Source: Acidobacteriota bacterium (GTDB lineage: Bacteria > Acidobacteriota > Terriglobia > Terriglobales > SCQP01). Taken from it: 64,000 nucleotides of DNA. Positions 12,520-62,019 of the stretch are shown here, in pieces. Where the stretch lies: positions 186,001 through 250,000 of the forward strand of contig JAKASR010000001.1 in assembly GCA_021818955.1 (NCBI GenBank), in the 5' to 3' direction. The notes below the pieces were generated by a model that saw nothing but the letters and a program-made list of their open reading frames with translations, did no database searches and was not told the DNA's origin. Every line of letters begins with the position of its first letter. The first letter of the stretch is position 1. The translations under genes and the position numbers were made by a program.

Positions 12520-12867
12520 ATGGACGGCCAAAACGACAAGAGCGAGATCTGGCAGGGGACGCTGGTGCTGATGGTATTGAAGACGCTGGAGACGATGGGG
12601 CCGCTGCACGGCTACGGCATCGCGCGGCGGATCGAGCAGGTCAGCGGGCAGGCACTGCTGGTCAACTACGGCACGCTGTATCCGGCGCTGATCAAGCTGC
12701 AGCAGGAAGGCTACATCAAGAGCGAATGGGGCAGTTCGGAGAATAACCGCCGCGCCAAGTATTACCGGCTGACGGCGGCGGGGCGGAAGCTGCTGGCGCA
12801 GGAGGCGCGCGCCTGGCAGCGCGCCCAGGACCTGCTGGCGCGCTTCTGGACTCCGCAAGAGCAATAA
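12520..12867 (+). CDS. PadR-family regulator, acidobacterial ADOP-linked type
   Basis: This 115-residue winged-helix protein carries the PadR signature: GTLVLMVLKTLETMGPLHGYGIARRIEQ at the N-terminus, then NYGTLYPALIKLQQEGYIKSEW and a C-terminal helix. Its short form and its place before a duplicated orphan permease match the acidobacterial PadR family that accompanies these permeases. It probably represses the permease and itself in response to an unknown ligand. A 17-bp-spaced promoter and dyads lie just upstream. A heptad array begins at the base after its stop codon and separates it from the permease gene. Confidence 0.9.
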   Translation: MDGQNDKSEIWQGTLVLMVLKTLETMGPLHGYGIARRIEQVSGQALLVNYGTLYPALIKLQQEGYIKSEWGSSENNRRAKYYRLTAAGRKLLAQEARAWQRAQDLLARFWTPQEQ

Positions 12868-13322
12868 GGCGCAGAGCGCAAGGCACAGAGCACAGAGCGC
12901 AGAGCGCAGAGCGCAGAGCGCAAAGCACAAAGCACAAAGCACAAAGCACAAGGCACAATGCGCAAAGCCAGAATTTGCCTGGGCGCATCCCGACTAGCGG
13001 GATGCTTTCCACGGAAGGAAAAAAGCTTAAGGCGCAGAGCGCAGAGCACAGAGCAAAGCACAAAGCGCAGAGCACGGAGCACAAGGCACAAGGCACAGAG
13101 CGCAAAGCACAGAGCGCAGAGCCAGAATTTGCCTGGGCGCATCCCGGCAAGCGGGATGCTTTCCACGGAAGGAAAAAAGCTGAAAGCGCAAAGCGCAAAG
13201 CACAGAGCACAAAGCGCAGAGCACGGAGCACAAGGCACAAGGCACAGAGCGCAGAGCGCAGAGCCAGAATTTGCCTGGGCGCAGCCCGCCAGCGGGCTGC
13301 TTTCCACGGAAGGAAGAAAGAG
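12868..13322. repeat. Heptad cluster A: CRCARAG arrays with three hairpin modules
   Basis: Arrays of the 7-bp unit CRCARAG lie at about 12868-12966, 13029-13122 and 13183-13264. They alternate with three modules at 12970-13026, 13124-13180 and 13266-13320. Each module has the fixed start AGAATTTGCCTGGGC, a hairpin, and the fixed end TTTCCACGGAAGGAA. The hairpins are GCATCCCG/CGGGATGC (12985-13005 and 13139-13159) and GCAGCCCG/CGGGCTGC (13281-13300). The change of a T-A pair to G-C keeps the stem. The array fills the gap between the PadR and permease genes and may be transcribed with them. Confidence 0.85.
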
Positions 13323-13366
13323 CAGAAAAGGCGTCCGAATCCGACGGGATGACGTGACAGGGAAGC

Positions 13367-13389
13367 AAAAGTAAAAGCGGCCGAGCCGC
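13367..13389 (-). repeat. Palindromic element fragment (left end, reversed)
   Basis: This stretch ends in GTAAAAGCGGCCGAGCCGC, the same as the outer end of the reversed element copy at 28016-28204. Only the end is present. It lies between heptad cluster A and the permease start codon. Confidence 0.55.
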
Positions 13390-13423
13390 AATTCGTGAAT
13401 TTACGGGTTAAGAGGAAGGCGGC

Positions 13424-16090
13424 ATGAGCGGACGAACGATGCGGCGGGGGTGGGCGCGATGGGGCGAATTGTTCCATTCGGCGCGAGCGAGGCGGGAGCG
13501 GGAGTTGGCGGAGGAGCTGGAGAGCCATCTGGCGCTGCACGCGGCGGAGTATGAGCGCGGCGGGCTGACGGCGGAAGAAGCGCGGCGGCGGGCGCGGATC
13601 AAGCTGGGCGGGCTGGACGCCACCGCGGAAGCCTGCCGCGACCGGCGCGGACTGCGCTGGCTGGAGGAGTGGGGGCAGGATGCGCGCTACGGCCTGCGGC
13701 AGATGCGCCGCAGCCCAGGCTTCACCGCGATCGCGGTGCTTACGCTGGCGCTGGGCATTGGCGTCAATGCCGGAATCTTTTCATTATTGGACAAGGCATT
13801 CTTCCGGCCTTTGCCGTATCCCCATGCCAACCACATGCTTTGGTTGACGGACAAGAATGCGCGGCTCGATTTAAACCAGCAGCCGGTCTCGGCGGAAGAA
13901 TTCAAGGCCTGGCAACAAGGCGCCAAGCCGTTATTGGCTGATCTGGTTTCAGGCATTGCGCCCGAAGTGGTTTCTTATCAATACCGGCCGGGCCAGCTTC
14001 GATATGCAACATTTGCCAGCGCCAGCGGCAATTTTTTTGCGATGCTGGGCATTGAACCCCGGCGCGGGCGCCTGTTGAACACCTCCGATACGCACGCGCA
14101 TTACATTGCAGCGGTCATTTCCTATTCATTCTGGCAACGGCAATTCCAGGCACATCCCCTCTCCGCCGGGTTGCATTTTCGGGTGGTGGATTTTTTCCCG
14201 CAGGAAACGAAGGTGGTAGGAGTGTTGCCGAAGGGATTTCGATTTGGGGCGAAAAAGGTTGATTTTTGGATTGCGCACGATACTCAGGCCGCACATCCGG
14301 ATCAACGCCACAATCTCTGGGCCATTGCGGTTCCACGCCCAGGAGTAAACCCAACCCAACTCAAAACGGCTTTGGACACGATTGACTCCAGCCTGGCGCG
14401 GATCGATCCCAATGAACGCGGCTGGCAACTTGCGATGGAGCCGCTACAACGACATTTCTTTTCTCCCATTTCGCTGTACCTGGCTTTATTATTTGCCGCT
14501 TCCGGATTGATTCTGCTGATCGCTTTTGCCAATTTTTCGAATCTGTTATTGGCGCGCGCCGAAATCCGCCGGCGGGAGCTATCCGTACGGGCGGCCTTGG
14601 GAGCCGGCGCCGGGAGATTGATCCGCCAACGAATTACGGAAAATTTTCTCATCGCTTTGCCCGGAATCGGATTGGGACTAGGTTTAGCCTGGGCGGGGCT
14701 GAAAATCCTGCTGGCTGTTTTACCCCATTCGCTTGCGACCGTATTTCAACTGCTGAAGCCACAATTGTTTTCCACGCCCGTGCTCGGCTGGGCTTTGCTG
14801 GTCACTATTTCGCTGATGCTACTGATCAGTGTTTTGCCGAGCCATACTTCAAGCCGCATTGGACTTTGGACTGGATTACACGATATGACGCGCGGAGGCG
14901 GCGGCGGCTTTCGTTTGCAACCGCTGCTGATCATGGGCGAAATGGCCATGGCCTTGCCACTTTTGCTCACGGCGGGATTATTGCTGCGCAGTTTCCAAAA
15001 GCTATTGCATGCGCCCCTGGGCTTTCAAGGCGAGCATTTAATCAGCATAGGCTTGGATCTGGAGCAACCATTTCCCAAGCAATACCGCTACGCTACGACC
15101 GCCTATCAAGCTTACCTGGACAACCTGCTACCACGCGTGCGCGCGCTGCCGGGTATCGTCAATGCCGTTTTTTCCGACAACCCGCCGCTAACGAGCGCGG
15201 AACAAACCGAAAGCGCCGCTTTCGCCAGCGCCGTGGATTTGAACATTGTATCGCCCGGATATTTTCAAATGATGGGGGTCCATCTGCTCGCCGGGCGCAG
15301 GTTCAACGCTTCCGATACCGCCGCTTTGCCCATGCGGGTGATACTGACGCGCAGCGCCGCCGAGCATTTTTTCCCAGGGCAGAATCCGATCGGCCGGCAG
15401 TTGAAATGGCGCCGCTGCAACTTTACCCGCGCCCAAGACCCGGAATGCCTGGTGATCGGGGAGGTCGAAGATACCCGCCAGACCAGCCTGGCAAATGCCG
15501 AGCCGCTGATCTACGAATCCATTTATCAAGATAAGACAACAGACGGCAGTTTAATCATGCGCACGCGCAATCATAGCGCCTCCCTGTTCGCACAACTCCA
15601 TAGCCTGATTAACCATGCCGCCTCGACAACGGGAATACGCATATCCACCGAGCCTGCGACTTTTATGCGCGCCCAGATCGAGGCCGCCGCCTCGGTTCCA
15701 CGCTTTCGCGCAGGATTATTGGTTCTATTTGCCGGATTAGCTTTAAGCCTGGCGATGCTAGGCATATTTGGAGTGACGCACTATTTTGTGACACGCTCAA
15801 CCCACGACATCGCCATCCATATGGCGCTGGGAGCAAATCCCAAAAGAATATTGGCCGATATTTTGGGGAAAGCGTTCCTGTGGACAGGAATGGGCGCTTT
15901 ACTGGGTCTGAGTTTGGCCTTCATCGCGGCACACGCAATCCGGAGCTTGCTGTTTGAAGTCACCCCGCTGGACCTGTTTACCTACGCCTTGGCGACACTG
16001 GTATTAATGTCCGCCTCACTACTCGCCGCCTGGCTGCCGGCGCGGCGGGCGGCGCGGCTGGACCCGTTGGAAGCGCTGCGATGCGAGTAG
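13424..16090 (+). CDS. ADOP-family MacB/FtsX-type permease
   Basis: The 888-residue protein starts with a soluble prefix domain (about 1-85). A first transmembrane helix follows in [21 protein letters not shown] (about 98-118), then a MacB-type periplasmic domain and an FtsX block with several helices (about 345-480). A second periplasmic domain and a second FtsX block end the protein (about 770-885). This double architecture is the acidobacterial duplicated orphan permease, which lacks an adjacent ATPase. A role in export or in mechanical signalling across the inner membrane is inferred from MacB. The PadR gene upstream is its usual partner. The middle of the gene is less GC-rich than its flanks. 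Confidence 0.92.
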
Positions 16091-16342
16091 GCGCGGCGAA
16101 GCCGCCAGGGGGCGCTACCGCGCAGCGCCGGCAGCAACGACCGCAAGGATAATGAAGACAACTACAAAAAGAGTTTAGCCGCACAAACCACTGCAAGCAG
16201 GAGAAAAAGCTGAAGCGCAGCCAGCTTGTCCGGAAAGCTATACTGTTGATTTCGAAAGGCTTATTAATGTTTTGTTAAATAATTTATTTCCTGGACAATT
16301 CCGGCATAATCCGGGCAAAAATAATAAATACCTGAGCGGAAT

Positions 16343-16477
16343 ATGACCGCCAACCGGGAGAGCATGTCGTTGATCGTCGCCAGTCGAAATTTGGAGGCCA
16401 TAGAGGAGTCCGGGGCGGATAACCGCCTGGAAACGATTGGCCTGCAAATGGAGCAAGCTGCCGGCAAGTCTTTTTAA
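16343..16477 (+). pseudogene. Decayed duplicate of the small Cys/His protein gene
   Basis: The DNA from 16343 to about 16500 aligns with 16514 to about 16690: the same ATGACC start, a shared GGAGGCC stretch, GCCTGGAAA, and then a long near-identical stretch ending in GAAAACACCAAAA. An internal deletion shifts the frame, so the open frame ends after 44 codons. The second frame would still read GRITAWK-like and ACKWSKLP residues, but with the first cysteine replaced by arginine. It is best explained as a tandem duplicate that has lost function. A small peptide cannot be excluded. Confidence 0.6.
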
Positions 16478-16513
16478 GATACGGAAAACACCAAAATCGC
16501 TAACTGGGAGGAC

Positions 16514-16798
16514 ATGACCGTGAACTGGGAGAACATGACCGTGTCCAAGGGCGCACCAAACGAAAAGCGAAAACTGGAGGCCGTAGTCGATGCCGCAGGG
16601 CGGATCACCGCCTGGAAATGCTCGGCCTGCAAATGGAGCAAGCTGCCGGAAAGTCCTTTTCTCGCCACGGAAAACACCAAAACCGTTTTTTCCCGCCATG
16701 TTTGCGAAGAACACGGAAAAAAGCGGACCAAGCAGAAGCCCGAGATGAAATGGCTGGCGTGCGCGATTTGGCAGCGGCCATTTCGGGCAGCCAGCTAA
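16514..16798 (+). CDS. Small Cys/His (zinc-finger-like) protein
   Basis: This 94-residue protein has C36-x2-C39 in WKCSACKW, then H62-x-C64 and H67 in FSRHVCEEH, a plausible single zinc site. A conserved-looking VVDAAGRITAW segment comes before the first pair. Function is unknown; small proteins of this look occur in Acidobacteria. The N-terminus contains a 21-bp tandem duplication around the start, so ATG codons at 16514 and 16535 are both possible, each after GGGAG. A decayed copy lies directly upstream and heptad cluster B directly downstream. Confidence 0.55.
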   Translation: MTVNWENMTVSKGAPNEKRKLEAVVDAAGRITAWKCSACKWSKLPESPFLATENTKTVFSRHVCEEHGKKRTKQKPEMKWLACAIWQRPFRAAS

Positions 16799-16830
16799 AA
16801 AACAAGTTAAGGCGAGCTCAAATAAGCCAG

Positions 16831-17182
16831 CACAGAGCGCAAAGCACAGAGCGCAGAGCGCAAAGCACAGAGCGCAAAGCGCAAAGCACAGAGCGCAAAG
16901 CGCAGAGCGCAAAGCGCAAAGCACAAAGCGCAAAGCACAAAGCGCAAAGCGCAGAGCGCAAAGCGCAGAGCGCAAAGCGCAAAGCACAGAGCGCAAAGCG
17001 CAAAGCACAAAGCGCAAAGCACAAAGCGCAAAGCGCAGAGCGCAAAGCGCAAAGCGCAAGGCTCAGAATTTACCTGGGCGCACCGCCCCGCAAAGCGGGG
17101 CGGATGCTTTCCACGGAAGGAAAAAAGCACAGAGCGCAGAGCGCAGAGCGCAGAGCACAAAGCGCAGAGCGCAGAGCACTGA
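16831..17182. repeat. Heptad cluster B: long CRCARAG array with one hairpin module
   Basis: An almost pure run of 7-bp units extends from 16831 to about 17062, the longest uninterrupted array here. One module follows at 17065-17128, then a short run to about 17182. The module hairpin at 17080-17107 has the stem CCGCCCCGC/GCGGGGCGG with loop AAA between the same fixed flanks as in cluster A. It lies between the small Cys/His gene and the 3' end of the convergent barrel gene. Confidence 0.85.
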
Positions 17183-17214
17183 GCGCGGAGCGCGGAGAAG
17201 GTCAGCCCCGGGGT

Positions 17215-18810
17215 TTAGAAGGTCGGGCCGAGGGTCAGGAACCAGCGATGGCCCTCGTGGGGGGTGAGGCCGAAGAAGAGCTTAAAGAGGGTCTTTCTGC
17301 GGCCATCGTTGAACAGCAGGCCCGCGCCCCAGGTGGTGCGCAGGTTGGAGCGGGTCAACTCGGAGCGGACATCGTAAACCTGTCCGAGATCGCCGAACAG
17401 GAAGGCGCCAAAGCCGGTGTCGAAGTAGTGGCGATATTCCAGGCTGCCGGCGACGGCGTTGAGGCCGTAGAAGCGGTAGGGGCGATAGCCGCGCAGGATC
17501 GAACTATCGCCGAGCCGCGCCAGCCGAAAGAAGGGAACCTGTTCGCCGGGTTTGGCAATATTCCAGATGCTCAGAACGCGGCCCGCTAAAACATTGCCAT
17601 AGGGCGTGAGAGGGAGATAGGCGCGCGCCTCGCCCTGATAATGCCAATACCCAAAATGGCTGTGGCCGGCGCCATAATTGTCGGAAGCCGAGAGGCGGAG
17701 GAAGACGCCGCGGTGGGGGTTGCGCGGATAATCGCGGGTGTCGAATTGGAGAAAGGCGAAGGTAGAGAACAGATTGGCGCCGCGCGCCAGGCCGGGCACC
17801 TGAGCGGGAGAGAAAGTGGTTTGGGCATTGGCGTAGCCGCTTTCCTGGCCGCCAAAGACGCGGTTGCCGGAATAATCTTCGCCGACGCCGGCGCGCAGGG
17901 CGCGGGCGGGCCGGATGCCGAAGGTCAGCGCCAGGGCGCGTTCCTGCAGGTCGTACATGGTGCGCTGCGCGGGGCTGAGCGGCCCCAGGCCGAAGAAATC
18001 TTCATTGGGACTGACGCGGTAGCGCCCGGTCAGATCGAGGCTGAAGGTGCGCATGTCGCCGCCGGTGGGATCGAAGCGAAAGCCGAGGGTGGATAGGAAG
18101 TAGGCCTCGGTGGTGACTTGCAGGCTGCCATGCAGTTGCAGCAGATTGACGGGGCCGGAGGGGGTAACAAAGGCGAGGCCGGGGCCGAAGCCGGAGCCGT
18201 CGCCCAGCCCGCCCCAGAGGCCGCGCACCAGCGATTTGCGGCTCCAGAGCACGATGCCGCGGTCTTGCAGACTATCCAGAATCGTTTGCGGATTGGCGTT
18301 GGCCATGACCAGGGTGGCCTGTCCGCGCTGGAGCAGGCAGACCAGGGTGGTCATGCGCCGTCCATGAGGGCGGGCGTAAACCCAGGATTCGCGGTTGCCA
18401 TAGCGCGAAGTGCGATGGGCGACGAACTGCCAAGGCGGGGGAAGCGCGGCCTGGAGAGCGGCGTTGACGCGCGCGCGCGCGGCGGGCGAAGGCTCGCCCT
18501 TAAGATCGAACAGCGCCAGATGGATGCGCCTGGGGCCGGACAGGTCGGCGCCGCGCAGGAACACCTGCGAAGCTCCCAGCAGGCGGCGATGCCGGGGAGG
18601 GCGGCGCAGCGCCAACGACAAATGATGCACGACCTGCGCGAATGCAGCGCCATGATGAGCGGCGTCCGGGCCCGCCGCCGCCCAAGCCGGCGGCGCCGAG
18701 GCAGCCAACGCCAGCCCCAGGAGGAGGGCAACCGCGCGCACCTTTTCTCCGACCCGAGGGGAAATTCCGATCGCCGCGGGGCGCAGGCACAGCGCCGTAG
18801 AGTTGTTCAT
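17215..18810 (-). CDS. BamA/TamA-like outer-membrane beta-barrel protein
   Basis: The 531-residue protein has a signal peptide (residues about 24-46, ending PAWAAA). A soluble N-terminal domain of about 150 residues follows, and then a C-terminal part typical of Omp85 surface-antigen barrels: alternating aromatic strands, RLGDSSILRGYRPYRF (the conserved RG motif) and a terminal phenylalanine. No clear POTRA repeats are visible. The N-terminal domain resembles the DUF4252 protein encoded just upstream, which overlaps this gene by 4 bp (ATGA). Assembly or secretion at the outer membrane is inferred. The unusual length before the signal peptide suggests the true start may be internal. Confidence 0.82.
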   Translation of the reverse strand: MNNSTALCLRPAAIGISPRVGEKVRAVALLLGLALAASAPPAWAAAGPDAAHHGAAFAQVVHHLSLALRRPPRHRRLLGASQVFLRGADLSGPRRIHLALFDLKGEPSPAARARVNAALQAALPPPWQFVAHRTSRYGNRESWVYARPHGRRMTTLVCLLQRGQATLVMANANPQTILDSLQDRGIVLWSRKSLVRGLWGGLGDGSGFGPGLAFVTPSGPVNLLQLHGSLQVTTEAYFLSTLGFRFDPTGGDMRTFSLDLTGRYRVSPNEDFFGLGPLSPAQRTMYDLQERALALTFGIRPARALRAGVGEDYSGNRVFGGQESGYANAQTTFSPAQVPGLARGANLFSTFAFLQFDTRDYPRNPHRGVFLRLSASDNYGAGHSHFGYWHYQGEARAYLPLTPYGNVLAGRVLSIWNIAKPGEQVPFFRLARLGDSSILRGYRPYRFYGLNAVAGSLEYRHYFDTGFGAFLFGDLGQVYDVRSELTRSNLRTTWGAGLLFNDGRRKTLFKLFFGLTPHEGHRWFLTLGPTF

Positions 18811-19406
18811 GGTTGTCTCCTGCCGGCTTTAACGGCGGCGCGGCCGACGGCGCCGAATTTTTTGGCGGCATGCACGTGCGGGATGCCAAAATGCCCGCCC
18901 AGGCGGCTAAGCTCGGCGGGATCGATCGGGCCCACCAGATTCACGACTCGAAGTTCCCGCGGGTAGGCGGCGATGATGGCCATGCCGGCGACGCCTTTGG
19001 CGGTGGACATCACATAGATATCCACATTTTTACGATCGCGGCGGCTGTGGACGCTGAGGATATGCGCCCATCCCGGCGCCCGCAACTGGCGGCGGATGGG
19101 GGCGAGATCATGGGCCGAATACTGGCCTTTTCCAGCGAAGCGGAAGCTTTTGACGTAGACGCCCTGGAGCTGCGCCAGCACCCGGCGGGCGCGGGCATCG
19201 CGCTCCCGGGCGGACAGCATGCGAATGCCCAATTGCAGCATGGGACCGTCGAGCATGACATGACTGACTTCGGCCGCCCGGCGGGCGAGGCCGCCGAAGC
19301 GGAGCTGGATGCGGGCCGGCTGCGGGGCGGGGTTTGACTGGGCCGCCAAGGCGCCGGCCAGGGCGGCGGCCGCGATAAAGGCTGAGAAGCAACGCGCCGT
19401 CTTCAT
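18807..19406 (-). CDS. DUF4252 domain protein, secreted
   Basis: The protein has 199 residues with a signal peptide ending near ALAAQS. The body shows the DUF4252 pattern: LQGVYVKSFRFAGKGQYSAHDL, a PGWAHILSVHSRRDRKNVDIYV strand pair, and the C-terminal IIAAYPRELRVVNLVGPIDPAELSRLGGHFGIP. Its function is not known. It is the third gene of a sigma-factor operon, 3 bp after the membrane protein gene, and overlaps the barrel gene by ATGA. In Acidobacteria and Bacteroidota such proteins often sit beside ECF sigma factors. Confidence 0.85.
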   Translation of the reverse strand: MKTARCFSAFIAAAALAGALAAQSNPAPQPARIQLRFGGLARRAAEVSHVMLDGPMLQLGIRMLSARERDARARRVLAQLQGVYVKSFRFAGKGQYSAHDLAPIRRQLRAPGWAHILSVHSRRDRKNVDIYVMSTAKGVAGMAIIAAYPRELRVVNLVGPIDPAELSRLGGHFGIPHVHAAKKFGAVGRAAVKAGRRQP

Positions 19407-19408
19407 AA

Positions 19409-19846
19409 CTAATTCGCTCCCTTGGGGACGCGGGCCGGGACGGCCACAGCGGGCGGCGCGCCGGGCGATTCGGTCAGGTCCCGATGGGCCTTGGCCGCCG
19501 CCCAGCCGAGCTCACGGGTGGTGATTTGCAAGGCATAAAGCAGGCGGGCTTGCGCCACTTGCGCGCGCCGGGTTTCGAGGCGATGGCGGCGCACCACCGC
19601 GAGGGCGAGAAAGGCACAGAACACGACCAGCGCGGAACAGAAACTGAGCAAGGAGGCGTGGCGGCGCAGTCCATGGCCTTTCGGTTGCGGCGGATGCGCG
19701 GCGGCAGCCTGCTGGCGGGCGCGCGCGAGAATGCGCGCGGTCAGCGCGTCAGGCGGGTCTTCGCGGGCGTAGTGTTCGCGCAGGCGGTTTTCCAATTCGG
19801 CATCAGCGTCCGGGTTATTTTTATCGGGTTGAAATTGGTCTAGCAT
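19409..19846 (-). CDS. Small membrane protein, possible anti-sigma factor
   Basis: The 145-residue protein has a charged cytoplasmic N-terminal half (LENRLREHYAREDPPDALTARILARARQQ) and one transmembrane helix at about residues 64-85. A short outer part with helix-forming residues follows. No HxxxCxxC zinc anti-sigma motif is present. The start at 19846 overlaps the sigma-factor stop by a few bases, which favours translational coupling. Position and topology suggest that it binds the sigma factor; this is inference from context only. Confidence 0.7.
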   Translation of the reverse strand: MLDQFQPDKNNPDADAELENRLREHYAREDPPDALTARILARARQQAAAAHPPQPKGHGLRRHASLLSFCSALVVFCAFLALAVVRRHRLETRRAQVAQARLLYALQITTRELGWAAAKAHRDLTESPGAPPAVAVPARVPKGAN

Positions 19847-20466
19847 GAATGCTCCAGATTCGCGGGCACGACTTCCGGCCGGGCGGAGACACACGCATGC
19901 AAGTTGCCCTCGGGCTTGGGTTGGGCGCCGGCGCCGGGGCGGGTTTGCGGCTGGCGCGGGCCGGAAGCGGGCGGGGGCGCGAGGCGCAGTTTCAAATGCG
20001 TCAAGGCGTGGCGGAGCTTTTGGCGAACGGCGTACTCGGTGATGCCGAGCACGCGGCCGATCTCGGCCGGATCCAGATCCTGCTGATAGCGGAGCACGAG
20101 CGCGACGCGCGCCAGCGGCGGCAGAGCGCGGAGGAGCCGATCGAGGCGGGCGGCCAGCAAGGGATCGCGCCGCGGCAGGGCGGCGACCTCGGCGGCGGGC
20201 TCATCGATTGCGTCCAGCAGCAGCCAGCGGCGCAAGCGGCGGCGGCGGAGCTGGTCAATGCAGCGGCGCGCGGCAACGCGGCGCAGCCAATGCAGCAGGT
20301 GCGCCTCGGACTCGATGCGGGCGGCGTGCTGGAAAAGCGCCAGGAACACATCCTGGGTGATTTCTTCGGCGAGCGAGCGATCGCGGAGCACATGCAGCGC
20401 CAGGCTGAAGACCATGCGGCGGTGCTCGATGACTACCTGCTCGAATTGCTCCGTATCCATGCGCAT
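19840..20466 (-). CDS. ECF sigma factor
   Basis: Region 2 is at about residues 8-80 (VFSLALHVLRDRSLAEEITQDVFLALFQH, then HLLHWLRRVAARRCIDQLRR). Region 4 follows (LPPLARVALVLRYQQDLDPAEIGRVLGITEYAVRQKLRHALTHLK). Beyond region 4 is a proline-rich tail of about 45 residues not usual for the family. ATG codons at 20466 and 20460 and a GTG at 20481 are possible starts. It is the first gene of an operon with a membrane protein, a DUF4252 protein and an outer-membrane barrel, and probably directs transcription of that operon. Confidence 0.9.
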   Translation of the reverse strand: MRMDTEQFEQVVIEHRRMVFSLALHVLRDRSLAEEITQDVFLALFQHAARIESEAHLLHWLRRVAARRCIDQLRRRRLRRWLLLDAIDEPAAEVAALPRRDPLLAARLDRLLRALPPLARVALVLRYQQDLDPAEIGRVLGITEYAVRQKLRHALTHLKLRLAPPPASGPRQPQTRPGAGAQPKPEGNLHACVSARPEVVPANLEHSC

Positions 20467-20573
20467 GCGGCAGCTATACACCCCGGCTTTTGCCGGTTCT
20501 ATAAAGGAATACGCGCCGGAAGGGCGGAATTTACAAATTTATTTAAGGGGCGCGACTGCGTTCGCGCGGCGCA

Positions 20574-21312
20574 AAAAGCGCAGAGCGCAAAGCGCAGAGC
20601 GCAGAGCACAGAGCACAAAGCACAAAGCTCAGAATTTGCCTGGGCGCACCACCCCGCAAAGCGGGGCGGATGCTTTCTACGGAAGGAAAAGCAGAAAGCG
20701 CAGAGCACAGAGCGCAGAGCGCAGAGCGCAGAGCGCAAAGCGCGGGGCGCAGAGCGCAAAGCGCAGGGCGCAGAGCGCAAAGCGCAGAGCGCAGGGCGCA
20801 GAGCGCAGAGCGCAGAGCGCAAAGCACAGAGCACAGAGCACAAAGCACAAAGCTCAGAATTTGCCTGGGCGCACCGCCCCGCAAAGCGGGGCGGATGCTT
20901 TCTACGGAAGGAAATAAACTGAAAGCGCGAGCGCAAAGCGCGAGCGCAAAGCGCAGAGCGCAGGGCGCAGAGCGCAGGGCGCAGAGCGCAGAGCGCAGGG
21001 CGCAGAGCGCAAAGCACAGAGCACAAAGCACAAAGCTCAGAATTTGCCTGGGCGCACCACCCCGCAAAGCGGGGCGGATGCTTTCCACGGAAGGAAAAGC
21101 AGAAAGCGCAGGGCGCAGAGCGCAGAGCGCAGGGCGCAGAGCGCAGAGCGCAAAGCACAGAGCGCAAAGCACAGAGCACAAAGCACAAAGCTCAGAATTT
21201 GCCTGGGCGCACCACCCCGCAAAGCGGGGCGGATGCTTTCCACGGAAGGAAAAGCAGAAAGCGCAGGGCGCAGAGCGCAGAGCACAGAGCGCAGAGCGCA
21301 GAGCGCAAGGCA
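20574..21312. repeat. Heptad cluster C: CRCARAG arrays with four hairpin modules
   Basis: Five arrays of 7-bp units alternate with four modules at about 20631-20692, 20856-20914, 21039-21100 and 21194-21255. The hairpins read CACCCCGC/GCGGGGCG or CCGCCCCGC/GCGGGGCGG with loop AAA; flanks are as in clusters A and B, and all eight modules in the window point the same way. Units carry G variants (GGGCGCAG) not seen in cluster A. The cluster fills most of the gap upstream of the sigma-factor gene. Open frames spanning it encode only ALCALRS-like heptapeptide repeats and are not genes. 21313-21442 holds no recognisable feature. Confidence 0.85.
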
Positions 21313-21442
21313 AGAGTCATCCAGTGACAAGGCTCCGTGCGGCCACAGAAACCGCCAGCGAGGGCGGAGACTACGACTACCGGCAAAACGACGGGAGAAA
21401 CGGAAGCGGCCGGACGGATTGCAAACCTACGCGCGCGCGAAT

Positions 21443-21904
21443 GCGGCACGGCCGCTTTTACTTTTAGGCGCTGACGCTGTAGCAAAGATCCGGCCGAAAC
21501 CGGACGGATTGCTAATGATCATGGCTGCCGGGCATTGCCAGGCGCAATTGCTGCGGAATTGCCGGCGTGCTCGGTGCAATTGCTGCGGAATTGCCGGCGA
21601 GATCGGTGCAATTGCTGCGGAATTGCCGGCGTGCTTGGTGCAATTCCTGCGGAATTGCTTTACTTATCGTTCCCAGACGCGGGACCTAACCGGAACCCCG
21701 CGCGAACCCGGCCTGCGAGCATGGCTAGAGGCAATTTCTCTGAAATTGCCAATGCTAGAGGCAATTTCTCTGAAATTGAGCAGGCTGCAGGCAATTTCTC
21801 TGAAATTGAGCAGGCTGCAGGCAATTTCTTCGAAATTGATAAAGTTCAGGCAATTTCTTCGAAATTGCCAATGACGAAAATACTGTCCGACTCGGCCGTT
21901 AGCG
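21443..21904 (+). repeat. Composite palindromic element, copy 1 (full)
   Basis: The left end is GCGGCACGGCCGCTTTTAC and the right end CTCGGCCGTTAGCG. In between, in order, are a CCGG-rich hairpin, four 32-bp units starting GCAATT (21544, 21576, 21608, 21640) with a GCAATT/AATTGC palindrome, a GCGCGGG/CCCGCG hairpin region, and five about 30-bp units (starts 21731, 21761, 21791, 21821, 21850) with the palindrome CAATTTC/GAAATTG. The element ends 3 bp before the stop codon of the metallophosphoesterase gene. No protein-coding capacity is credible. Confidence 0.85.
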
Positions 21905-21906
21905 CA

Positions 21907-22746
21907 TCAGGCAACGGAGCCGGGGGGCTGGGCGGCGGGCTGGAGGGTGAGCAGGGCCAGTTCGGGCGGGCAGCCCCAGCGGAAGGGGACGATGACCTGG
22001 CCGAGTCCGCGGCTGATGTACATCTGGGTGGCCTGCATCTGGCGCCAGCCGTCGGGGGCCCAGCGATGATAGAGCTGGCGGGCGAAGCGGGGCCGGACTT
22101 GTCCGCCATGGGTATGGCCGGAAAGCACCAGGTCCACGCCGGCGCGGGCGGCGTCGGGCAGGGTGAGGGGATTATGCGCCAGCAGCAGGGTGAAATCGGC
22201 GTGGCCGAGGTTGGCGCCGAGGGCGCGGCGCAGGGAAGGACGCTGGCGGCGATCGTCGATGCCGGCGATGAGCAGGCGGCGTCCCGCGACCTGGCGCCAG
22301 ACGGCGCGGTTGCGGAGCACGCCGATGCCGTGGGCTTCGAGCTCGGCGGTGAGCGGCTCGGCGCCGGCGCGGAAGTCGTGATTGCCGAGCACGGCGAAGA
22401 CGCCCAAGCGCGCGCGCAGGCGTCCCACCATGGCGCTGACCGGAGCGATGAACTGCGGCGAAAGGGTGACAAAGTCGCCGGTGATGGCGATCAGGTCGGC
22501 TTCGAAATCCTGAGTAAGCGCGAGCACGCGCTGGAGGCGATGCGGGGTGTCGTAAAGGCCATAATGCAGGTCAGAAAGGTGGGCGATACGCAGCCCGGCA
22601 AGCTCGCGCGGCAGGGCGGGAAACTCCAGCTCGCGATGGGTAATCTGCGGATCGGCAATGCGGCGGCGGTGCGCGTGCACCCAGCGGTGGGCGCGCGGCA
22701 GGTAACGGCGGCGGGACTGGGGATGAAATAAAGATTGCATGTTCAT
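21907..22746 (-). CDS. Metallophosphoesterase (YkuE/YaeI-like)
   Basis: The 279-residue protein shows the calcineurin-type dinuclear metal motifs in order: HLSDLHYG, ITGDFVT, VLGNHDF, LLLAHNP and LVLSGHTHGGQ. A basic N-terminal stretch may associate with the membrane. This subfamily includes UDP-diacylglucosamine pyrophosphatase-like and YkuE enzymes; the substrate cannot be read from sequence. ATG at 22746 or 22740 could be the start. It is last in a minus-strand run with the inositol-phosphatase-like gene, 64 bp away. Confidence 0.9.
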   Translation of the reverse strand: MNMQSLFHPQSRRRYLPRAHRWVHAHRRRIADPQITHRELEFPALPRELAGLRIAHLSDLHYGLYDTPHRLQRVLALTQDFEADLIAITGDFVTLSPQFIAPVSAMVGRLRARLGVFAVLGNHDFRAGAEPLTAELEAHGIGVLRNRAVWRQVAGRRLLIAGIDDRRQRPSLRRALGANLGHADFTLLLAHNPLTLPDAARAGVDLVLSGHTHGGQVRPRFARQLYHRWAPDGWRQMQATQMYISRGLGQVIVPFRWGCPPELALLTLQPAAQPPGSVA

Positions 22747-22810
22747 GAACGGCGAAAAGCTAAAGCTTAAATCCATCTTCACATCAGCGGGCGATGGCAA
22801 GCCCCAAAAC

Positions 22811-23635
22811 TCACGGCTGCGCGGCGGCAAAGCGGGGTAGCGGGACATCGAACTCGCCGGCGAGCACCTGGGCGAACAGCGCCCGGATTTGGTCATGGAT
22901 GAGGCCATTGCTGGCCAGAATGGCAGGGCTTTGGAGCGAGAACGGTTCGCCCTGCAAATCGGTGATTTGGCCGCCGGCCTGATCGAGGATGCAAGCGCCG
23001 GCGGCCATGTCCCAGGGCTTGAGGCCGAATTCCCAAAAGCCCTCGAAACGGCCGCAGGCGGCATAGCAAAGGTCGAGAGCGGCGGCGCCGAGCCGGCGCA
23101 CGCCGTGGCTGCGCAAGGTGGCGGCGTAATAAAAGAGGATATTGGGGCTGGAGGAGCGCTGCCGGGTGGGAAAGCCGGTGCCGAGCAGGCTCTCGCCCAA
23201 GCGGGGAACGGGCGAGACCTGAATGGGGCGTCCATTGAGGCTGGCGCCGCAGCCCTGTTCCGCGGTGAACAACTCATCGCGCGCGGGGTTGTACACCACG
23301 CCGGCGATGCGCCGGCCGTCGCATTCCAGACCCAGGGAGACGGCAAACTGCGGCAGGCCATGCGCGAAGTTGGTGGTGCCATCGAGCGGATCCACATACC
23401 ACCGGTAAGCGGAGCCGGAAGCGTGTTGGCTGCCTTCCTCGGCGATCAAATCGTGCTGGGGAAAGGCGGCGCGCAGGCGTTCGACAATCAAAGCTTCGGA
23501 TTCGCGATCGGCGGCAGTGACCAGATCAACGCCGCCTTTGTATTCGATGCGCACGCGGCCGAAATGACGCATGAGGACGGCGCCAGCGGCGCGCGCGATC
23601 TCGGCGGCGGGGGGGATGAAAACGGGCTGGGTCAT
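22811..23635 (-). CDS. Inositol monophosphatase family protein
   Basis: The 274-residue protein has the three lithium-sensitive phosphatase motifs: E66-E67 in AEEGS, DPLDGTTNF (D82, D85) and WDMAAG near residue 206. They bind Mg2+ and the phosphate of inositol-1-phosphate, histidinol phosphate, PAP or a similar substrate. The start at 23635 overlaps the moaE stop (ATGA), so translation is coupled. PAP phosphatase activity would suit the sulfotransferase elsewhere in the window, but this is speculation. Confidence 0.9.
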   Translation of the reverse strand: MTQPVFIPPAAEIARAAGAVLMRHFGRVRIEYKGGVDLVTAADRESEALIVERLRAAFPQHDLIAEEGSQHASGSAYRWYVDPLDGTTNFAHGLPQFAVSLGLECDGRRIAGVVYNPARDELFTAEQGCGASLNGRPIQVSPVPRLGESLLGTGFPTRQRSSSPNILFYYAATLRSHGVRRLGAAALDLCYAACGRFEGFWEFGLKPWDMAAGACILDQAGGQITDLQGEPFSLQSPAILASNGLIHDQIRALFAQVLAGEFDVPLPRFAAAQP

Positions 23636-24492: not shown

Positions 24493-24536
24493 GCGAAAGA
24501 AGCTATCAGCTTTCCGCGCAAAGCACAAAGCGCAAA

Positions 24537-24874
24537 GCGGCACGGCCCATTTTTACTTTTAGGCGCTGACGCTTTCGCAAAGGTCCGGCCGAAACCGGAC
24601 GCTTGGCGAAAACTCAGGGCTGCCGGGCATTGCCGGGCGCAATTCCCGCGGAATTGCCGGCTTACCGGGCGCAATTCCCGCGGAATTGCTTTTCGTCGTT
24701 AATAGGCGCGGGACTTAACAGGGACCCCGCGCTTCGGCCTGCGGGCATGGCTTTAGGCAATTTCTCCGAAATTGATAATGCTAGAGGCAATTTCTCCGAA
24801 ATTGATAATGCTAGAGGCAATTTCTCCGAAATTGCCAATGACGAAACTACTGCCCGACTCGGCCGTTAACGCTT
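24537..24874 (+). repeat. Composite palindromic element, copy 2
   Basis: It has the same ends and order as copy 1 but fewer units: two 32-bp units (24639, 24671; GCAATTCCCGCGGAATTGC) and three 30-bp units (24757, 24787, 24817; GGCAATTTCTCCGAAATTG). The hairpin GTCCGG/CCGGAC lies near 24583-24600. The left end directly abuts a short CRCARAG array at about 24518-24537. It fills the gap between moaD and the methyltransferase gene. Confidence 0.85.
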
Positions 24875-31409: not shown

Positions 31410-31478
31410 AGCAGCAACCGAAATGATTTAAACGTTAAATTTGCAGGAGCACTACCCGGCGGCGAAGCTGTTTTTAAG

Positions 31479-31876
31479 GCGGCACGGCCGCTTTTATTTT
31501 AGGCGCTGACGCTTTCGCAAAGGTCCGGCCGAAACCGGAGGTTGGCGAATACGCATGGCTGCCGAGCAATACCGGGCGCAATGCCCGCGGAATTGCCGGC
31601 TGGCTTGGCGCAATTCCTGCGGAATTGCTTGGTATCGTCGTTCATAGGCGCGGGACCTAACCGGAACCCCGCGCTTCGGCCTGCGGGCATGGCTTGAGGC
31701 AATTTCTCCGAAATTGATAATGCTAGAGGCAATTTCTCCGAAATTGATAATGCTAGAGGCAATTTCTCCGAAATTGATAATGCTAGAGGCAATTTCTCCG
31801 AAATTGATAATGCTAGAGGCAATTTCTCCGAAATTGCCAAGGACGAAAACTGCCGCCCGCTGGGCCGTTAAGGCTT
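31479..31876 (+). repeat. Composite palindromic element, copy 4
   Basis: The order matches copies 1 and 2, with two 32-bp units (31577, 31609) and five 30-bp units in perfect register (31699, 31729, 31759, 31789, 31819), the most regular array of the set. The left end is GCGGCACGGCCGC and the right end GGGCCGTTAAGGC. It lies between xseA and the diheme cytochrome gene. Because 30 is a multiple of three, open frames cross the array and encode ten-residue repeats; these are not taken as genes. Confidence 0.85.
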
Positions 31877-59082: not shown

Positions 59083-62019
59083 ATGTCCTTGAAAAGCTTA
59101 CTGATTCGCAAAGGCAATATTTCCTTCACCTACGAGATCCTGATCCTAGCGGGCGCGCTGGGAACGGGACTGGCGGCGGCGCCCCCCCTGCCGGCGGCGA
59201 GCCGCAGGATGCCGGTGGCGCAGCTCAGCCGGCTGCGGCTGCCTTTGCAATTTGAGCCGAACCGGGGGCAATGGCCGGCTCCGGTGCAATATGCGGTGCG
59301 CGGCAATGGACGCGTTCTGCAACTGGTGGCGAAAGGCGCCAATTTAGCCTGGCAGAGCCCGGCCCAAGGGCCATCCTCCCGGCTTCATGTGCTGCGGATG
59401 CGCTTTACCGGCGCCCGCCGCTTGCGCTGGCACGGGCGCCAGCGGCTTCCCGGCCGGATTAACGAACTGGTCGGCGCGCGCCGGCAATGGCGGCGCAATC
59501 TGCCGGTATACGGGCAAGCCGTGGCGGACCAACTCTACCCCGGCGTGGCGCTGCGCTTTGAAGGCCGCGGCGGGGCGATGGAATGGAATCTGCATTTCGC
59601 TCCGGGCGCTACCCCGCAAACGGTTCGGCTGCGGTTTCAGGGCGGGAACGCGCGAATCGAATCCGATGGCAGCCTGCAGGTCGCAGCCGGCGGCCAAAAG
59701 GTGAACTGGCTGGCGCCATACGCATGGCAGATGCGGCAGGGGCGGCGGGTGCCGGTCGCGGTGCGCTATACGCTGCGCCGCCACGGCGAAGTGGGCTTTC
59801 GGCTGGGCGCGTACGACGCCCGGCGGGAACTGGTGATTGATCCCACGCTGGCGTGGGCCACCTACCTGGGCGGAGCGGGCAATGACCAGGCCAGCGCGGT
59901 TTCCACCGACAGCAGCGGCAACATCTATATCACCGGCTTTACGCTTTCAACCAATTTCCCGGTGTCCAGCGCGCTGCAGTCCAAGTCCGGCGGCAGCAAT
60001 GATGCTTTTGTGACCAAAGTGAATCCGCTGGGCAACAAACTGATTTATTCCACCTACCTGGGTGGATCCGGCGACGATGAGGCCGCCGGAATTGCCGTGA
60101 ATTCCAGCGGCAATGCGGTGGTCACCGGATTTACCAACTCCACTAATTTCCCCACCACGGCCGGCGCGCTGGCCACGGTGGCGCCTGGCGGCTATAACGC
60201 CTTTGTTGCCGAGTTGAGCGCGGGCGGATCTTCCTTGCTGTACTCCACCTATTTGGGCGGCACGGGCAACGATTACGCCACCGGCCTGACGCTCGACAGC
60301 CTGGGCGATGCCTACATCACCGGCTACACTTCTTCCACCGATTTTCCGACGACCGCCGGGGTCGTACAACCCAGCCTGAAGGGAACGGTGAACGCCTATG
60401 TCAGCGAGTTGAATGCGGCCGGCTCGGCGCTGATTTATTCCACCTATTTGGGCGGCTCGGGCATCGACCATGCCAATGGCATTGCCCTGGATAGCGGCGG
60501 CAACGCCTACATCTGCGGTTTTACCAGTTCCACCGATTTTCCGGTGACCAGCGCCGCCTTTCAAACTCAGTTTGGCGGCAAATACGACGCCTTCGTGGCC
60601 GAGCTCGCCCCGGGCGGCGCCTCGCTGATCTACGCCACCTATCTGGGCGGAAATGCCGATGACGAGGCGAACGCGCTGACGGTAGATAATGCCGGCGCCG
60701 CTTACGTCACCGGCTACACGCTTTCAACGAATTTCCCGGTCACGATTGGGGCCTACCAGACCACCGCGACCTATGGCAAGAACGTGTTCGTCACTAAGCT
60801 TAGCGCCGGCGGCGCCTCGCTCGACTACTCCACCTTTATCGGCGGCACGGGCAACGATATCGGCAATGCGATCGCGGTGGATGCGCAGGGTTATGCCTAC
60901 GTTGCCGGGCAGACGGACTCGCCCAATTTCCCGGTTACTCCCGGGGCGATGCAATCCACGCTGGGCGGGAACAGCGACGCTTTCCTGCTGCGCCTCGATC
61001 CGGTGGGCCAGACCTTGCCCTTTTCCACCTATATGGGGGGGAGCGGCGTGGATCAGGCCAATGGCATCACCCTCGATCCTTCCGGCAATGTGGTGGTCGT
61101 GGGAACCACGTTTTCCGTGAATTTCCCGGTGACCAGCGGCGCCTTGCAGGCCGCCAACGCCGGCTCGGCCGACGCCTTCGCGGTGAAGTTCACCACGGGG
61201 CCGGCGGCCGGCTTCTCAGCCAGCCAAATCGTCTTTCCGGAACAAGCGGAAAACACCACCAGCACGGCCCGTTCGGTGACGCTCTACAACTCGGGCGAGG
61301 CGCCGCTGACGATTGCGAGCATCGCCGCCAGCAAAGATTTTGCCCAGACCAACAATTGTCCCGCGGTGATGGCGCCCTCGACCAGTTGTTCGATCAGCGT
61401 TACCTTCACGCCCTCGGTCACAACCAGTCCGGATACGGGCACGCTGACCGTGACCGACAATGCCCCCGGCGGTACGCAAACCGTGGCGCTTAGCGGCACG
61501 GTCGGCACCTTCAGCCTTAGCGCCAACCCGACCCAACAGATCATCAACCCGGGCGGGACCGCCAGCTATACGCTGACCTTTACGCCGGCGAATGGTTACG
61601 TTTCGACGACGTACTTGTACTGCAACGGGCTGCCCTCGGGCGCTACCTGCACCTTCACGCCGCAGCAATTGACGCTCTCGGGCGATAGCAACGCCACCTC
61701 GGCTTCGACCTTGAGCATTGTGACCAGCACCAGCGCCGGGCTGCCGATGCCGCCGCCGGGATCGCCGAGCCGGCCCTGGCTCTGGGGCGCAGGCTTGCTG
61801 GCCTTAGCCAGCCTGGGGCTGGCGGCGTGGCGCCGGCGCGGATCGCGCCGTTGGCTGGGAGTGGCGGCGTTAGCCTTGATGAGCCTGGCGGCGGTGGGAT
61901 GCGGCTCCAATTCGCCCGCGAACTCCACCCCGACGGGTACTTATAACGTCACCGTCAATGCCAAAGATGTGAATGGCAAAGTGATCCAAGCCACCCAGGT
62001 GAGCCTGGTGGTGCAGTAA
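59083..62019 (+). CDS. SBBP-repeat beta-propeller surface protein
   Basis: The 978-residue protein has a hydrophobic N-terminal segment. A domain of about 200 residues follows (FEPNRGQWPAPVQYAVRG to LVIDPTLAWATYLGG). About seven SBBP repeats come next, with the recurrent STYLGGSGDDEA, GNAYITGFT and STNFPVT motifs, then a choice-of-anchor-D-like Ig domain and a further beta domain. The C-terminus has a transmembrane helix, an arginine-rich stretch and a second helix that ends LAAVGCGSN. A large surface or secreted adhesin-like role is inferred. This architecture is common in Acidobacteria. Confidence 0.9.
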   Translation: MSLKSLLIRKGNISFTYEILILAGALGTGLAAAPPLPAASRRMPVAQLSRLRLPLQFEPNRGQWPAPVQYAVRGNGRVLQLVAKGANLAWQSPAQGPSSRLHVLRMRFTGARRLRWHGRQRLPGRINELVGARRQWRRNLPVYGQAVADQLYPGVALRFEGRGGAMEWNLHFAPGATPQTVRLRFQGGNARIESDGSLQVAAGGQKVNWLAPYAWQMRQGRRVPVAVRYTLRRHGEVGFRLGAYDARRELVIDPTLAWATYLGGAGNDQASAVSTDSSGNIYITGFTLSTNFPVSSALQSKSGGSNDAFVTKVNPLGNKLIYSTYLGGSGDDEAAGIAVNSSGNAVVTGFTNSTNFPTTAGALATVAPGGYNAFVAELSAGGSSLLYSTYLGGTGNDYATGLTLDSLGDAYITGYTSSTDFPTTAGVVQPSLKGTVNAYVSELNAAGSALIYSTYLGGSGIDHANGIALDSGGNAYICGFTSSTDFPVTSAAFQTQFGGKYDAFVAELAPGGASLIYATYLGGNADDEANALTVDNAGAAYVTGYTLSTNFPVTIGAYQTTATYGKNVFVTKLSAGGASLDYSTFIGGTGNDIGNAIAVDAQGYAYVAGQTDSPNFPVTPGAMQSTLGGNSDAFLLRLDPVGQTLPFSTYMGGSGVDQANGITLDPSGNVVVVGTTFSVNFPVTSGALQAANAGSADAFAVKFTTGPAAGFSASQIVFPEQAENTTSTARSVTLYNSGEAPLTIASIAASKDFAQTNNCPAVMAPSTSCSISVTFTPSVTTSPDTGTLTVTDNAPGGTQTVALSGTVGTFSLSANPTQQIINPGGTASYTLTFTPANGYVSTTYLYCNGLPSGATCTFTPQQLTLSGDSNATSASTLSIVTSTSAGLPMPPPGSPSRPWLWGAGLLALASLGLAAWRRRGSRRWLGVAALALMSLAAVGCGSNSPANSTPTGTYNVTVNAKDVNGKVIQATQVSLVVQ

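Follow-up and report, generated by a model that had tools for sequence, protein, structure and literature searches.

Hairpin modules embedded in a heptameric satellite of an Acidobacteriota genome: probable REP/BIME-like interspersed repeats with preserved pairing

The heptamer-repeat clusters of this Acidobacteriota locus raise the question of what the hairpin modules lying within them are, and why their hairpins still pair where their sequences differ. The window, that is the whole 64-kb stretch analysed (G000:C12:186001-250000), came from a draft genome of 3.80 Mb that was 96% complete. An earlier note on this DNA had described eight modules with common flanks in clusters A, B and C, all pointing in the same direction; all eight were found at those places, every one on the + strand (Table 1). 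The window modules were far from chance, with model E-values down to 1e-22, and the observation of eight hairpin modules is real. The module consensus was AGAATTTGCCTGGGC, the hairpin, and TTTC[C/T]ACGGAAGGAA, laid out over 53-61 bp as GAATTTG..CTGGGC, a GC-rich hairpin and a mini-hairpin (TTTCC-ACGGAA-GGAAA); module B1 carried the variant AGAATTTACC (G to A). The stems fell into the classes described earlier, with GCATCCCG/CGGGATGC in two modules, GCAGCCCG/CGGGCTGC in one and the long CCGCCCCGC type in five. All five long stems contained a bulged A; three of them, and so three of the eight window modules, also had an A·C mismatch. Compared with dinucleotide shuffles, the folds showed only a modest gain (z -2.5 to -3.0, + strand).

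Table 1. Modules, heptamer arrays and neighbouring genes of clusters A, B and C (positions of the whole window).
Feature	Position	Strand	Remarks
PadR-family regulator gene, upstream of cluster A	12520..12867	+	Pfam PF03551, 5e-21
Cluster A heptamer arrays (RRGCRCA)	12867..13264	+	modules interrupt arrays
Module A1	12968..13022	+	stem GCATCCCG/CGGGATGC
Module A2	13122..13176	+	stem GCATCCCG/CGGGATGC
Module A3	13264..13317	+	stem GCAGCCCG/CGGGCTGC; 3' side without heptamers
MacB_PCD/FtsX permease gene, downstream of cluster A	13424..16090	+	Pfam PF12704, PF02687
Cluster B heptamer arrays	16828..17194	+	end 21 bp before the stop of a convergent Omp85-domain gene
Module B1	17063..17124	+	stem CCGCCCCGC/GCGGGGCGG, bulged A
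Sigma factor gene beside cluster C	19840-20481	-	
Cluster C heptamer arrays	20576..21307	+	antisense to both neighbouring genes
Module C1	20629..20690	+	stem CCACCCCGC/GCGGGGCGG, A·C mismatch
Module C2	20854..20915	+	stem CCGCCCCGC/GCGGGGCGG
Module C3	21037..21098	+	stem CCACCCCGC/GCGGGGCGG, A·C mismatch
Module C4	21192..21253	+	stem CCACCCCGC/GCGGGGCGG, A·C mismatch
Metallophosphoesterase gene beside cluster C	21907-23397	-	

The arrays around the modules were T-free and built of the 7-bp unit RRGCRCA. Tandem Repeats Finder and unit scans placed these units head to tail in intergenic DNA, as in a heptameric satellite. Flanking of every module by heptamers had been claimed; it was seen on both sides of seven of the eight, and module A3, the third of cluster A, had heptamers on its 5' side only. 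In cluster A, the first heptamer unit lay immediately 3' of the padR stop codon (TAA 12865-12867). Of the 26 arrays here, 11 started no more than a few bases from a stop codon on the same strand, compared with 3 of 26 at the mirror position (the opposite end), and about 3.5% of random positions lay near such a stop; for this test, any simple open frame of 120 codons or longer was taken as a reading frame. By simple ORF calls, no same-strand gene lay upstream at four or more module loci (cluster C of the window, L009 1982-2349, L011 1312-1733 and L020 7431-7748).

GCRCARR-like arrays were also present in unrelated bacteria and in an archaeal MAG (at least 113 stretches), and 39 stretches in IMG/VR matched GCRCARR-like heptamers. 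Among the arrays of unrelated phyla (loci L056-L168), 23 of 94 started beside a same-strand stop and 5 had one at the mirror position; these counts are partly non-independent because several of the arrays came from the same genome. That arrays in unrelated genomes begin at stop codons in a strand-specific way is a general pattern open to testing, and it may explain the sites at which bacterial minisatellites originate. In locus L074, the array followed a stop codon and was succeeded at once by an inverted copy and a T-run, the satellite itself forming a terminator-like hairpin. In the middle of locus L219 (genome G005, a family member), another heptamer array, GGGAARA, was located apparently directly after a TGA stop.

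A search with the sequence and structure model R1 revealed 42 to 44 full-length module copies in the genome, and the broader model R2 gave 45 modules in the genome loci examined. Most copies were near-identical duplicates. Within 19 heptamer loci there were 38 of the 45 modules, and their orientation relative to the RRGCRCA array was constant. The other seven lay outside heptamer arrays and were all diverged, among them the lone module before gpmI (stem GCGGCCCG/CGGGCCGC), one on contig C40 (GCAACTCGC/GCGAGTTGT) and one on contig C43 (GCAAGCAA/TTGCTTGC). Several out-of-array modules were preceded by other purine-rich tandem units, either the 10-bp GAGCTAAAAC or AAAGCTC pairs; at L245, a stop codon was followed by AAAGCTC units and then by a module with the stem GCAAGCAA/TTGCTTGC. 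Whole blocks with common flanks recurred across loci, for example over 412 bp at 98% identity beside the C9 and C26 arrays, and tandem blocks measured 154 to 183 bp. The fixed orientation, the flanks common to loci and these tandem blocks point to duplication of blocks and recombination from array to array, and less to insertion of bare modules. A signature of single-unit slippage was absent, with 28 identical neighbouring heptamers compared with 30.0 expected (p 0.73, shuffling).

Against 752 matches of the heptamer pattern in this genome, 59 relatives, a congener among them, had none. Models R1 and R2 gave only weak module hits in the same 59 relatives, none of them convincing, and those inspected with their sequence resembled chance matches within genes. 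The exact module pattern was absent from GTDB genomes and from IMG/VR, and literature searches turned up nothing specific on the heptamer sequence or on such Acidobacteria repeats. The gap between eno and gpmI was 329 bp long here, with repeats and the lone module, whereas in the congener it was about 50 bp long and free of both. A mosaic repeat of about 250 bp that adjoins the heptamer-module arrays had 60 matches in this genome, and shorter, diverged pieces of it were found in four further family members, the congener being one. Since the mosaic repeat is present in relatives and the heptamer-module system is absent from them, the latter probably arrived late on a repeat background that was older and shared. 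The dispersed intergenic mosaic repeat spanned about 250-450 bp at 21400-21900, 24536-24874 and 31473-31870 of the window and at L208 1621-1872, and carried the palindromic subunits GCAATTGCTGCGGAATTGCC and GGCAATTTCTCCGAAATTG.

Comparison of the stems showed that GCAGCCCG, GCATCCCG, GCGGCCCG, GCAACTCG, GCAAGCAA and CCGCCCCGC each kept their own complements. Swapping arms between 12 stem classes, with hand-chosen arm boundaries, broke the pairing; the mean duplex energy was -14.4 kcal/mol for own arms and -8.0 (sd 0.9) kcal/mol for swapped arms (permutation p about 5e-5). Cells with changes on both sides numbered 8 in 12 diverse copies (3.2 when shuffled) and 13 in 33 distinct copies (3.0 when shuffled), in each case above all or nearly all shuffles. 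The covariation score was 0.210 for the 12 diverse copies (shuffles, 0.136); for the 33 distinct copies, whose alignment had been guided by the structure and is biased in its favour, the score was 0.146 (shuffles, 0.082, sd 0.009) and was reached by 0 of 500 shuffles. The signal was lost when the partner was slid by 1 to 3 columns. Most of the variety rested on one pair only (24-45 of A5: GC, UA, AU and CG), and the changes in helix 2 were one-sided only, all to U·G as read on the + strand.

The preserved pairing is real. The claim that pairing is kept despite sequence change holds genome-wide, diverged copies outside the arrays included, and the stems were not simply copied with their flanks, since these diverged copies still pair. 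Compensatory change within the window was weaker than claimed, and consisted of one compensatory pair (T-A to G-C) and one wholesale stem replacement, set against the A·C mismatch in three of the eight modules.

We consider that the modules are non-coding, non-autonomous, lineage-confined interspersed palindromic repeats of a REP/BIME-like kind, copied in blocks with the satellite and kept as hairpins (probability about 0.62). The earlier note had found no repeat class to name for them, which was too strong, because their behaviour fits REP/BIME-type dispersed palindromic repeats and heptameric satellites; the family is placed here among the interspersed palindromic repeats, as a new variety. 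Like REP/BIME elements, the modules are short GC-rich palindromes with many intergenic copies, tandem clusters with flanking DNA, a lineage-specific distribution and a possible bias to regions downstream of genes. As in BIMEs, the intergenic copies are clustered with common mosaic motifs (38 of 45 modules in 19 loci); as to the gap preference of BIMEs (tail-to-tail or tail-to-head), 11 of 26 arrays start at a same-strand stop, but several loci differ. Unlike REP/BIME elements, the modules carry no GTAG or CGTC tag (in the aligned copies the stem is preceded by CTGGGC and followed by TTTCC), have no RAYT gene, do not alternate in orientation and are embedded in a 7-bp satellite. CGTC REPs are also without RAYT (PMC3733652). 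Searching genome G000 for a RAYT/IS200 transposase (Y1_Tnp, PF01797) gave no match, and the controls were detected. That no mobilising enzyme was identified for the module family counts against this explanation.

Heptameric simple repeats have been studied as G-quadruplex formers in Xanthomonas (GGGAATC) and Nostoc (GGGGA[T/C]T). They resemble the arrays here in being intergenic 7-bp repeats with internal variants and species-specific length, but their unit differs and no hairpin module was seen described for them (PMC4692102). TAACTGA heptamer repeats in Beggiatoaceae, Cyanobacteria and Bacteroidetes are likewise dispersed, intergenic and found in unrelated lineages (PMC4679880). Most of them sit immediately 5' of start codons, and they include stop codons, whereas the arrays here are T-free and tend to follow stops; no comparable hairpin module was seen described for the Beggiatoaceae heptamers (PMC4679880). 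Rfam 15, at gathering and relaxed thresholds, gave no match in the window; outside it, the hits were weak and fell in unrelated families. In their repeat and spacer layout the loci did not resemble a CRISPR, as the DNA between modules was heptamer satellite of variable length and the hairpin had only a sub-threshold CRISPR-DR28 hit.

If the modules are such block-copied repeats, a block of purine-rich 7-bp satellite and 53-61 bp module would be copied within and between intergenic regions. Spread of the block would proceed through duplication in tandem and, with the heptamer arrays supplying the homology, through array-to-array recombination or gene conversion. The hairpin would be retained because its folded form matters, likeliest in RNA downstream of genes, where it could help to form 3' ends or protect mRNA; alternatively, it would act in DNA, as a hairpin or cruciform. 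A 3'-end RNA role appears to be the likeliest reason for retention, and is rendered less certain by the weak tail and the four loci without a same-strand upstream gene. To the known repeats the family adds a structurally constrained hairpin that has a fixed orientation inside its short satellite and has dispersed across a single genome. Its occurrence in a lineage without a detectable RAYT transposase suggests that RAYT is not needed for palindromic interspersed repeats to multiply.

It is possible, as a tentative alternative, that the module works in its own right at the 3' ends of RNA (as a weak intrinsic or hairpin-dependent terminator, or an mRNA 3'-protecting hairpin) and that the satellite is a passive filler between stop codon and hairpin. 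The array starts at same-strand stop codons, the diverged copies that also follow stop codons (e.g., L245), the preserved pairing and the GC hairpin followed by UUUCC all favour it, and in intrinsic terminators, too, a GC-rich hairpin precedes a tail containing U, often past the ends of genes. However, the U-run is short, a tail of UUUCC only, which does not make an intrinsic terminator with a strong U-run; the terminator scan flagged one of the eight window modules, near background (19 found vs 14.5 expected). Moreover, several modules occur per gap (three or four at most), four loci have no same-strand upstream gene by simple ORF calls, and the element is missing from the congener. Template switching at palindromes turns imperfect arms into perfect ones, and is a known mutational mechanism. 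It may have produced part of the preserved pairing, and the claimed selection on the fold, with which the pairing agrees, is weakened to that extent, as such correction of imperfect palindromes could match the arms too. That it produced all of the pairing, in a neutral repeat and without selection, is rather doubtful: the stems vary by replacement and length instead of stepwise paired substitutions and most copies are recent duplicates, as this reading has it, but diverged out-of-array copies still pair though the remaining module has drifted, and the non-palindromic module ends are conserved as well.

A self-expanding 3'-flank element is unlikely. In such an element, T-free, purine-rich RNA just past the stop codon, no longer covered by ribosomes, would form R-loops, and these would make the heptamer arrays expand; the hairpin module would be selected for ending or protecting transcripts and would limit expansion; if this were true, stop-anchored, strand-specific heptamers in unrelated phyla would reflect one general mechanism. 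Movement by a single-strand (HUH) transposase, as a true REP/RAYT or IS200/IS605-derived element, is very unlikely. The modules share dispersed palindromic units, fixed orientation and non-palindromic flanking motifs with REPs (PMC3733652), but the 96% complete genome has no Y1_Tnp (PF01797) match where controls were detected, and no GTAG/CGTC tag lies beside the stem. The hexaloop motif bound by CsrA/RsmE is CANGGANG, and CACGGAAG of the second mini-hairpin, with C-ACGGAA-G in the loop, fits it. A CsrA/RsmE-binding regulatory RNA is nevertheless scarcely credible, since CsrA (PF02599) is unmatched in the genome and the motif or stem is broken in several copies (e.g., TTTACACGAAAGGAAA and TTTGCACGG).

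Tandem units of about 70 bp, 70-75% alike, were seen near a heptamer array at L022 808-1413. At 60196-60650 of the window, a stretch of about 260 bp was repeated at an offset of about 195 bp with 69% identity, within a long open frame.
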